Positions 3,714-5,738 of a stretch of 5,738 nt of DNA are shown in pieces. The notes beneath the pieces were generated by a model. That model saw nothing but the letters and a program-made list of their open reading frames with translations. It was not told the DNA's origin and did not search any database. Origin of the DNA: an uncultured Clostridium sp. (GTDB lineage: Bacteria; Bacillota_A; Clostridia; Lachnospirales; Lachnospiraceae); contig CAMWKN010000136.1 of assembly GCA_947174825.1 (NCBI GenBank), positions 1-5,738 on the forward strand, written 5' to 3'. The position numbers were made by a program, and so were the translations under genes. Within the stretch, counting starts at the first letter, position 1. Each line of letters opens with the position of its first letter.

Positions 3714-3851
3714 TCATACAACAAAATATAGAACTTGTTTTGATATTTTTCTCCAAACTGCCACATCTAAAAATGTGTAAAAAAGCATAATTCCAAAATA
3801 GGCAATTACCAAAAGAAAAGCCGTACCAATTTTTATATTATATTCCTTCAT
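3714..3851 (-). CDS. Small single-pass membrane protein (45 aa), fourth gene of the cassette
   Basis: ATG 3851-3849 opens 45 codons ending in TGA 3716-3714, directly followed by TAG. After a short polar start (MKEYNIK), residues ~8-33 form one hydrophobic span (IGTAFLLVIAYFGIMLF and onward). A basic patch WRKISK (33-38) and a short hydrophobic tail follow, so it should sit in the cytoplasmic membrane as a single helix. A GAGGAG ribosome binding site 11 bases upstream lies inside the last codons of the 228-aa gene, and only 5 bases separate that gene's stop from this ATG, so translation should be coupled. I recognise no family. A six-T run at ~3785-3780 allows a frame that stays open to 3655, so an indel there could have shortened a longer protein. 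Confidence 0.55.
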   Translation of the reverse strand: MKEYNIKIGTAFLLVIAYFGIMLFYTFLDVAVWRKISKQVLYFVV

Positions 3852-3856
3852 AGCCC

Positions 3857-4543
3857 TTAAGACTCCTCTATATTCCTGCCTAAGAGAATTCTCTGCGTTT
3901 CCTTATCTTCAAGCAACCTTCTAATTTTCGCATCCCCAGATAGGAGCTTACCAGTATTACACCTCTTCTTTTCTGCATACCCCAACACGCAGCAATCCCG
4001 ATACCAGCACTCTCCCAGCAATGTTCCTTTCACTGACCATTCCTCATTTTCCGTCAATTCAAATGTAACAGCCTTAATAACACGCTCTGTGGAATATCTC
4101 TTAAATCCCATAAGGTATTCCAAAGTTTTCTTGTCCGTTATGCTGGCAATATCAATCTTATGTTCCTTTATCGCTGATAAAAGAACCTCACGCATAGCAA
4201 TTTTATCCGTTTTGCCAGAGCCTGTCCATTCAATCAATTTTGAAAAGCTCAAAATAATATGTTCAAAACAAATCATATCCAAAATTATAATCTGATCCGG
4301 ATACTTCGCCGCCAATTTCCTTAGCTCCATATATTTATTCATCACATCCATATTATCATATACAATGTCAAAAGCGAGATAGTACTTGTCGCATTCCTGT
4401 GGCATCAACTGCCTGACGGCATCCAGAATCCCCTGGTTGCTGCCTTTACTCTCCACCACGCATTTATTTTGAAAAAGATATTCATTCACCAAATTCCAGT
4501 AATGTAGTCCCGCCCCTGAATCTTCTGTCCAGATATAATTCAT
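3857..4543 (-). CDS. Uncharacterised 228-aa protein, possible TOPRIM-like N-terminus and cysteine cluster
   Basis: I do not recognise a named family. The N-terminus NYIWTEDSGAG (2-12) is a strand ending in an acidic residue, as in the TOPRIM fold. It is followed by WNLVNEYL, VESKGSNQGILDAV (30-43, with a glycine turn) and YYLAFDIVYDN (54-64), with aspartates at 59 and 63. A strand-to-helix segment IIILDMICFEHIILSF runs 85-100. This order resembles DUF4435/OLD-type TOPRIM proteins, but the canonical DxD is absent, so the link is tentative. Near the C-terminus, GECWYRDCC (177-185) plus C195 could bind a metal. The start overlaps the ATPase stop as ATGA (4543-4540), which implies coupled translation and probably a shared complex. 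TOPRIM-plus-ATPase pairs occur in OLD, Gabija and PARIS defence, so a nuclease or effector role is possible but unproven. Confidence 0.75.
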   Translation of the reverse strand: MNYIWTEDSGAGLHYWNLVNEYLFQNKCVVESKGSNQGILDAVRQLMPQECDKYYLAFDIVYDNMDVMNKYMELRKLAAKYPDQIIILDMICFEHIILSFSKLIEWTGSGKTDKIAMREVLLSAIKEHKIDIASITDKKTLEYLMGFKRYSTERVIKAVTFELTENEEWSVKGTLLGECWYRDCCVLGYAEKKRCNTGKLLSGDAKIRRLLEDKETQRILLGRNIEES

Positions 4544-4950
4544 ACTTCCACCAGCTCCCTCTGCAGCGACACTTTATAATCCGTCTCCTCTAAAATCACA
4601 AAACTGCTCGCAGACAAATTCAATCCATCACAATTTCTTGCAAAAAGCATATACTGGTTGCTAGAATCAAAATTTATAAAATTTCTGTCCGCATCATCCA
4701 AAAGCAGATCTGCATTGTCGATCACGATAAATTTATCCCTACACTTTTTCAAAGCGCTATGAAACTCTTCTGATTTATAATTAAAGAGTTTTAGTTTCCG
4801 ATACTCTTTTGTCATTTTTAAATCCTCTAACATTTGGTAAAGATATGTTTTTCCACTGGCACTGTCTCCCCTTACCAAAGTGATTCGGTCAGCAAATGAT
4901 AGGAAATAGTAAAACGGCTCTGCCCGAAATTCTATGGTATTATAAATCAT
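4540..4950 (-). CDS. Very small P-loop ATPase
   Basis: This 136-aa protein binds and probably hydrolyses ATP. From ATG 4950, the Walker A motif GDSASGKT is at residues 28-35 after the strand RITLVR. The Walker B strand FIVIDNAD is at 74-81, and NQYMLFARN (98-106) resembles a sensor strand with R105 as a possible finger. Two features are unusual. The protein is about half the size of most AAA or ABC ATPases and has no visible ABC signature or second domain. The Walker B aspartate (D78) is followed by N79 where a catalytic glutamate is usual, so hydrolysis may be weak or need a partner. Start choice: AGGAGG ends 7 bases before ATG 4950, whereas the longer frame to 4992 has no good site. It overlaps the upstream stop by 11 bases and the downstream start by 4. 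Confidence 0.8.
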   Translation of the reverse strand: MIYNTIEFRAEPFYYFLSFADRITLVRGDSASGKTYLYQMLEDLKMTKEYRKLKLFNYKSEEFHSALKKCRDKFIVIDNADLLLDDADRNFINFDSSNQYMLFARNCDGLNLSASSFVILEETDYKVSLQRELVEV

Positions 4951-5392
4951 CCGCATCCCTCCTCTCATACTCCTTGGACCACCACTGTTCATAGCCGCTG
5001 CGCCCAGTTACTACATCCATATTATTAAAACAGATTTCTACATTGTCAGCAATACAAATCCTCTCTGGCCGAGACATATACAGGTGAATCTCATCCATTG
5101 CAAATAGCATATCCAGCGCATTTTTCCCACATTCATCCGCATTGACCACTTTTCCTGGGTTCTTCATCACATTCAGCACAGTCTTGCACCCGCTGGAAAG
5201 ATTGCGCACTGTACCCAGTCCATATTTTGTCTCAATGTGCTTATTTTCTGTCAATTTTGCATGGTCTATCTGCCAAATAACACTTTTATCTTTTTCCAGA
5301 AAATCTTCATTACTGGTATATATGTTAAAGTACCAGTCATTTTGCAGAATCCAGTTCTCGGAATCCTGCTTATTTGTATAAACATAAATCAT
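4940..5392 (-). CDS. DUF4869-like protein, first gene of the cassette
   Basis: This 150-aa soluble protein has no signal peptide or membrane span. The section LSSGCKTVLNVMKNPGKVVN (65-84), then ADECGKNALDMLF (85-97), a strand-rich IHLYMS and a late VEICFNN resemble DUF4869. That family is common in Clostridia and has no known function. The match is from memory of the pattern and is not certain. The start is ATG 5392-5390, since AGGTGATC, an 8-base match to the 16S rRNA 3' end, lies 3 bases upstream. A GTG at 5401 lies inside that site and is not used. The gene overlaps the ATPase gene by 11 bases, with the ATPase's AGGAGG embedded in its last codons, so the two should be made together. A modulator or sensor role beside the ATPase is inference only. 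Confidence 0.75.
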   Translation of the reverse strand: MIYVYTNKQDSENWILQNDWYFNIYTSNEDFLEKDKSVIWQIDHAKLTENKHIETKYGLGTVRNLSSGCKTVLNVMKNPGKVVNADECGKNALDMLFAMDEIHLYMSRPERICIADNVEICFNNMDVVTGRSGYEQWWSKEYERRDADDL

Positions 5393-5430
5393 TCCGATCA
5401 CCTACCTAAGATAAGATTTAATAATTACTA

Positions 5431-5576: not shown

Positions 5577-5656
5577 TCACTCGAACTCTATCGTCCCCGG
5601 CGGCTTACTCGTCAAATCATAAACCACTCGATTTACCCCCCGCACCTCATTAATTA
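5577..5656 (-). CDS. guaA: GMP synthase (glutamine-hydrolysing), C-terminal end only
   Basis: GMP synthase makes GMP from XMP, ATP and glutamine in the cytoplasm, the last step of de novo guanine nucleotide synthesis. Only the final ~26 codons are present. They read INEVRGVNRVVYDLTSKPP then GTIEFE and TGA (5579-5577). This is the strongly conserved GuaA C-terminus, part of the dimerisation domain, where most homologues end SKPPATIEWE or close to it. The 5' side is lost because adapter-derived sequence takes over somewhere between 5657 and 5663; the few codons before INEV are therefore unreliable. It is a core gene and marks the chromosomal side of the accessory region. Confidence 0.92.
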
Positions 5657-5738
5657 CTTTATCTTATACACATCTGAAGATGACGACGAATAGGCTTGTG
5701 GAGATCTCGGGTGTAGCCGTATCATTAAAAAAAAGTGG
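5657..5738. other. Illumina Nextera P5-side adapter (sequencing artefact)
   Basis: CTTATACACATCT (5663-5675) is the reverse complement of the transposase mosaic end, with two mismatches in the six bases before it. It is followed by a 14-base stretch (5676-5689) matching the P5-side adapter arm with three C-to-A changes. Then come an 8-base index-like slot (5690-5697), then GTGGAGATCTCGG and CCGTATCATT (5698-5726) matching the P5 flow-cell sequence with four mismatches. A run of A and GTGG ends the window, as in reads running off a short insert. No biology should be read here. Confidence 0.95.

Follow-up and report, generated by a model that had tools for sequence, protein, structure and literature searches.

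The 5,738-base contig CAMWKN010000136.1 of an uncultured Clostridium sp. (Lachnospiraceae), referred to here as the window, carries on its minus strand a cassette of three overlapping genes, A3, A2 and A1, which encode a DUF4869 protein, a mini P-loop ATPase and a putative TOPRIM nuclease. This cassette is probably an undescribed three-component module resembling OLD and PARIS, and it may represent an undescribed bacterial defence system. The reading that we somewhat favour is that of a compact system working like the ATPase–TOPRIM systems OLD and PARIS, with an ABC-type ATPase split between two proteins. A2 would bind ATP, and A3 would pair with it and supply the ABC signature motif that is absent from A2, so that both proteins would jointly form one ABC-type ATP site and restrain the TOPRIM nuclease A1. 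Once triggered by an invading phage or another mobile element, they would activate A1; the ensuing damage to nucleic acid would stop the infection but would also be costly for the cell. The target could be RNA, because AriB of PARIS is reported to cleave tRNA (PMC12409363).

A more specific proposal, put forward tentatively, is that of a naturally split ABC ATPase in which A2 holds Walker A and B, DUF4869 as an ABC half lacking a P-loop contributes the signature in trans, and a single composite A2/DUF4869 site controls a separate TOPRIM effector, the whole forming a Lachnospiraceae-centred immune class with at least three arrangements. If true, proteins of 136, 150 and 228 residues would illustrate how far an ABC machine can be reduced and still gate a nuclease, DUF4869 would gain a testable role and a gut-bacterial family would gain a defence candidate. 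In the literature on TOPRIM with ABC or Lachnospiraceae, no description of the cassette was found in titles and abstract openings; a newer defence catalogue could contain it.

A conserved unit of three genes

The minus strand of the window carries, in this order, an apparent 3’ end of guaA, A3, A2, A1 and an open reading frame (ORF) of 45 amino acids (aa):

4940 to 5392, minus strand: A3, DUF4869 protein of 150 aa (PF16163); an alternative GTG start at 5401 is possible
4540 to 4950, minus strand: A2, mini P-loop ATPase of 136 aa (AAA_22 below the cut-off, invariant P-loop residues)
3857 to 4543, minus strand: A1, TOPRIM-like putative nuclease of 228 aa (from a structural model with best Foldseek and VIA matches to OLD TOPRIM)
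3714 to 3851, minus strand: membrane ORF of 45 aa, outside the conserved unit (no homologue in the collected loci)

The start of A2 was taken as 4950 and not 4956, because an AGGAGG lies seven bases ahead of 4950. A first-pass annotation of this DNA had described a four-gene cassette whose genes overlap by 11 and then 4 bases before a 5-base gap. The ORF coordinates reproduce this layout, with A3 and A2 overlapping by 11 bases, A2 and A1 by 4, and 5 bases separating A1 from the 45-aa ORF. The membership of the last ORF does not hold, since tblastn of the collected loci retrieved only the peptide itself, followed by a second match within the window at E 2.6, and its suggested role as an effector or anchor is thus unsupported. 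The ORFs found 3’ of A1 in other loci are apparently unrelated to it. The conserved unit is therefore composed of three genes, not four.

A search of genome contigs with an A1 profile yielded 74 loci (termed class I below), or 75 sequences with the window. Their record titles mostly name Lachnospiraceae or genera that we take to belong to this family. The cassette is complete in 46 of the 75 sequences, 6 others being cut by a contig end and 23 incomplete, and all 46 complete cassettes keep the order A3-A2-A1 on a single strand, which is far beyond chance. At the A2–A1 junction, A1 starts one base past the end of A2 in 25 of these cassettes and overlaps it by 4 bases in 12. Across the complete cassettes, the three proteins have pairwise distances whose correlations are 0.93–0.95, as expected for genes travelling together, and the flanking genes vary between loci. 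An Rfam scan of the window at gathering scores gave no match, and inspection by eye for a shared upstream RNA or operator found that ribosome binding sites alone recur, except within groups of similar loci. The NCBIfam scan gave nothing above the cut-off for the cassette proteins. The possibility that the cassette is a housekeeping or conjugation module, also raised in the first-pass annotation, finds no match above the cut-off in the library scans made.

A2 and A3 as proposed halves of an ATPase

A2 matches AAA_22 at E 9.8e-5, below the cut-off, and its P-loop residues do not vary across 23 aligned sequences. The motifs that bear on the ATPase are the following:

4846 to 4869, minus strand: Walker A of A2, GDSASGKT (pattern GxxxxGK[ST])
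4714 to 4725, minus strand: Walker B of A2, VIDN (Walker B-like pattern)
5183 to 5200, minus strand: LSSGCK, A3 residues 65–70, proposed ABC signature ([LI][SA]xGxK in 67 of 67)

Of 79 non-redundant A2 sequences, 77 have the Walker A pattern, and each of these 77 also shows a Walker B-like pattern at a median of 44 residues downstream (range 5–62). A2 has no ABC signature, nor room for one.

A3 belongs to DUF4869 above the curated cut-off (PF16163, E 7.9e-8, 32.7 bits against 28.9), as had been anticipated. Pfam gives the family no function, in line with the earlier description of this gene, and a literature search found no mention of DUF4869 or PF16163; a testable reading as a carrier of the ABC signature can now be offered. 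The A3 model has a predicted local distance difference test score (pLDDT) of 94.7. In a Foldseek comparison with the PDB, its top 17 matches are all ABC-type ATPase entries, all with weak scores and followed by a mixed lower list; after realignment of the fold matches, 47 of 50 rows are ABC-type entries. The 67 non-redundant A3 proteins, all mutually homologous, each contain a signature-like [LI][SA]xGxK (LSxGxK-type) motif, and a P-loop is found in none of them.

Homology of A3 to ABC proteins by profile alone was considered and rejected. Six profile comparisons gave P values of 0.028–0.65, none of them significant, and 33 ABC proteins, themselves mutual homologues, scored higher as a group than 300 decoys (median 15.8 compared with 12.45), with decoys holding ranks 1–4 and ABC proteins taking 7 of the top 20. 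These results, together with the weak fold scores, the mixed lower list and the presence of both Walker motifs in A2 itself, would suit a different three-gene ATPase–TOPRIM module, also defence-like, in which A3 has no relation to ABC proteins and serves as a sensor or inhibitor, and A2 acts alone or as a homo-oligomer. We regard this as rather unlikely, given the run of ABC-type entries among the fold matches of A3 and a signature-like motif that all 67 A3 proteins carry and A2 lacks.

A1 as a putative TOPRIM nuclease

The A1 model (pLDDT 92.2, with low confidence at residues 181–200) has a TOPRIM-like fold, its best Foldseek and VIA matches being OLD TOPRIM domains with weak scores but consistent rows. 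A1 is best read as a putative TOPRIM nuclease. Three features contain invariant residues:

4520 to 4531, minus strand: WTED, A1 residues 5–8, with E7 at the end of strand 1 in the position of the TOPRIM glutamate
4352 to 4375, minus strand: AFDIVYDN, A1 residues 57–64, with D59 and D63 after strand 3 as proposed metal ligands
3959 to 4009, minus strand: cysteine cluster C179, C184, C185 and C195 of A1, a possible metal site

The TOPRIM motif consists of a glutamate after strand 1 and a DxD after strand 3. E7 is present in A1, and D59 and D63 are spaced DxxxD where the motif has DxD. The WTED stretch is invariant in 23 sequences, W5, E7 and D8 are likewise constant in a set of 12 that covers both gene-order classes (see below), and D59, D63 and N64 are invariant in 104 sequences. 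The four cysteines, pointed out as a cluster from the outset, are likewise invariant in the alignment of 23. A sequence search of solved structures with A1, A2 and A3 gave a best E of 0.11.

Relation to known ATPase–TOPRIM systems

A review describes ATPase–TOPRIM pairs as a recurring design of bacterial immunity, seen in OLD, Gabija, PARIS and retrons, and the ATPase of OLD as interrupted by an inserted dimerisation domain (PMC10568477). The likeness of the cassette to OLD, Gabija and PARIS, which the first-pass annotation had proposed, is supported by the weak but consistent fold matches and by a fusion of A2 to an A1-like domain in relatives.

PARIS, proposed as class 4 OLD, comprises the ABC ATPase AriA and the TOPRIM protein AriB; in the cassette, by contrast, A2 is only 136 aa long without a signature, and a third gene encodes DUF4869. 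At E ≤ 1, A1 matches neither a PADLOC model nor DUF4435, the family of AriB. A2 matches PDLC02979 partially (E 0.002, 15.9 bits), falling short of membership in AriA. With PADLOC (2023), no match was obtained for A1 or A3, and A2 had only weak, partial ones.

The single-gene class 1 OLD proteins and GajA of Gabija (class 2) have an ABC-type ATPase with a C-terminal TOPRIM, an order repeated in the A2–TOPRIM fusion; unlike OLD, this fusion is just 317–343 aa long and has DUF4869 alongside. Neither A1 nor A2 of the window gives a GajA match at E ≤ 1, one fused relative matches it weakly (E 0.025), and none of the 10 window ORFs scanned encodes a helicase, such as the GajB that adjoins GajA in Gabija.

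Arrangements and distribution

Relatives were studied in stretches picked from match lists rather than at random (one set of 12, one of 20 and a further set). Three main arrangements exist. Class I has the order A3-A2-A1, and class II the order A1-A3-A2, found in L087–L096 among the 12 stretches and in a second set in L014. Class III consists of A3 and a single gene of 317–343 aa joining A2 to an A1-like domain, in 11 of the 20 chosen stretches (L100–L110); here A3 is first in 10 of 11 and last in L106, as it also is in L154. Comparison by hhalign shows the second domain of this fusion to be a homologue of A1 (P 1.7e-8, probability 95% with a profile of classes I and II; P 6.9e-5, 63% with a class I-led profile; controls, P 0.34 and 0.19). 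Further sets, in L111, L112, L115 and L116, have a TOPRIM-like gene that is separate and longer.

Of 299 genomes of the family, 24 match the class I A1 profile, 22 of them just once. With profiles that span classes I and II, A3 is detected in 53 and A2 in 60 of the 299, and the pair in 49. That the genes might seldom co-occur, an early concern, is not what was observed: 69 of 87 A3 (DUF4869) matches have A2 within 1.5 kb, and 67 of 88 A2 matches have A3. On closer look, several A3 matches without A2 adjoin a divergent ATPase (e.g. L154, L155, L157, L158, L160 and L161), and L153 and L164 have none alongside. The 4.9-Mb genome G116 contains 13 A3 matches, with many divergent A3-A2-TOPRIM sets (L112–L117, L157–L160, L168 and L169). 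A scan of the phylum matched 2 of 398 genomes, namely the starting genome and one weak match, at which broader A2 and A3 profiles found nothing.

A phage origin was considered and rejected, as pattern scans for A1 of classes I and II and for A3 of class II found no relatives in viral contigs. Among 50,697 phage-collection records, one contains a copy of the cassette; this record is marked UNVERIFIED and unannotated, and its A1 frame is broken. No class I A1 match was found in 72,556 plasmid records.

As separate observations, L014 carries class I and class II cassettes about 1 kb apart (6156–10091), the A1 of the second being apparently truncated. In L115 (1518–2916), a small ATPase gene of 181 aa beside the cassette overlaps one for a 292-aa protein with the N terminus MNIWMRFEDS; the two could be another ATPase–TOPRIM pair, one that lacks DUF4869.

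Genomic neighbourhood and decay of A1

ORFs around class I cassettes were compared with PADLOC at E ≤ 1e-10. The near sample comprised 120 of the closest 150 ORFs (193 within 2.5 kb, 58 loci) and the far sample 120 of the farthest 150 (194 in all), 30 ORFs being dropped by hand from each, mostly as suspected shadow frames or overlaps. The control was a random 120 of 179 ORFs from 20 hand-picked other regions in 13 genomes. Matches cover 126 models for the near ORFs (within about 1.8 kb), 133 for the far ORFs (at least 3.2 kb away) and 4 for the control, totals that are not gene counts, as one gene can match many models and some loci are related. Among the matches listed, which name 25 of the 126 near and 25 of the 133 far models, are Csm6, QatC, QatD, AbiEi and Aga_SIR2 (one ORF each) and mad2 (six) near the cassettes, and Cas1, JetA, JetB, AbiLi, AriA, SpbK, ShosA, type I specificity and mad3 (eight) farther away. 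The control models are PDC-M43B (3 ORFs), mad2 (2), MzaA (1) and mad3 (1). Near and far samples do not differ. The cassettes sit in regions with defence genes; the PADLOC result says no more than this, and not that the cassettes themselves defend.

Among class I loci not cut by a contig end, A1 alone is damaged in 12, through stops in L009, L045 and L048 and deletion or partial loss in L054, L055, L058 and L069–L074. A3 alone is damaged in one (L046) and A2 alone in none, and in the other 10 of the 23 incomplete loci more than one gene is damaged or absent; a single stop in a draft genome could be an error, and one event may be common to several related loci. In class II, with A1 as the leading gene, it appears to be the only damaged gene in 3 of 11 sets (L095, L096 and the second set of L014). 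The search does not favour this bias, since the loci were found through A1, and a costly nuclease kept in check by its partners would explain it. The patchy occurrence, the neighbours rich in defence genes where the control set is not, and a decay mostly of A1 alone suggest a defence role for the cassette.

The selective loss of A1 with A2 and A3 intact, the tight gene overlap and the 13 A3 matches in one genome would befit a selfish module of the toxin–antitoxin kind, with A1 as a toxin restrained by A2 and A3 and no dedicated anti-phage role. This appears improbable in view of the abundance of known defence genes around the cassettes compared with the control and of the lack of class I A1 on the plasmid records. 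A housekeeping complex that processes nucleic acids in Lachnospiraceae is very improbable: the strong sequence conservation, the usually single A1 match per genome and the reported cell-cycle role of Cran1, an archaeal OLD-family ATPase, would fit it, but the restriction of A2–A3 pairs to 49 of 299 genomes, the differing neighbourhoods and the frequent decay oppose it.

Other features of the window

Directly upstream of the cassette lies what we take to be the 3’ end of guaA (5578–5656, tail VNRVVYDLTSKPPGTIEFE). L002 and L007 likewise have a guaA-like gene just ahead of the cassette, and L074 has one at a greater distance upstream. Islands integrate at the 3’ end of guaA. The right end of the window (5660–5738, TCTTATACACATCTGA...) closes in a run of A and resembles what is presumably a degraded Nextera adapter; this contig end is probably an artefact that cuts guaA.

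Elsewhere, positions 718–1122 encode an apparently incomplete chloramphenicol acetyltransferase-type fragment of 134 aa (PF00302, E 1e-9), and an AAA_33/zeta-toxin-like kinase gene (2033–2593; PF06414, E 2.6e-6) lies 3’ of a methyltransferase gene. A 244-aa protein at 3–734, open at the contig end, had no significant match in the family scan, and its stretch LDGIYEWDGRIFIIEAKA resembles, by eye, a PD-(D/E)XK nuclease motif.
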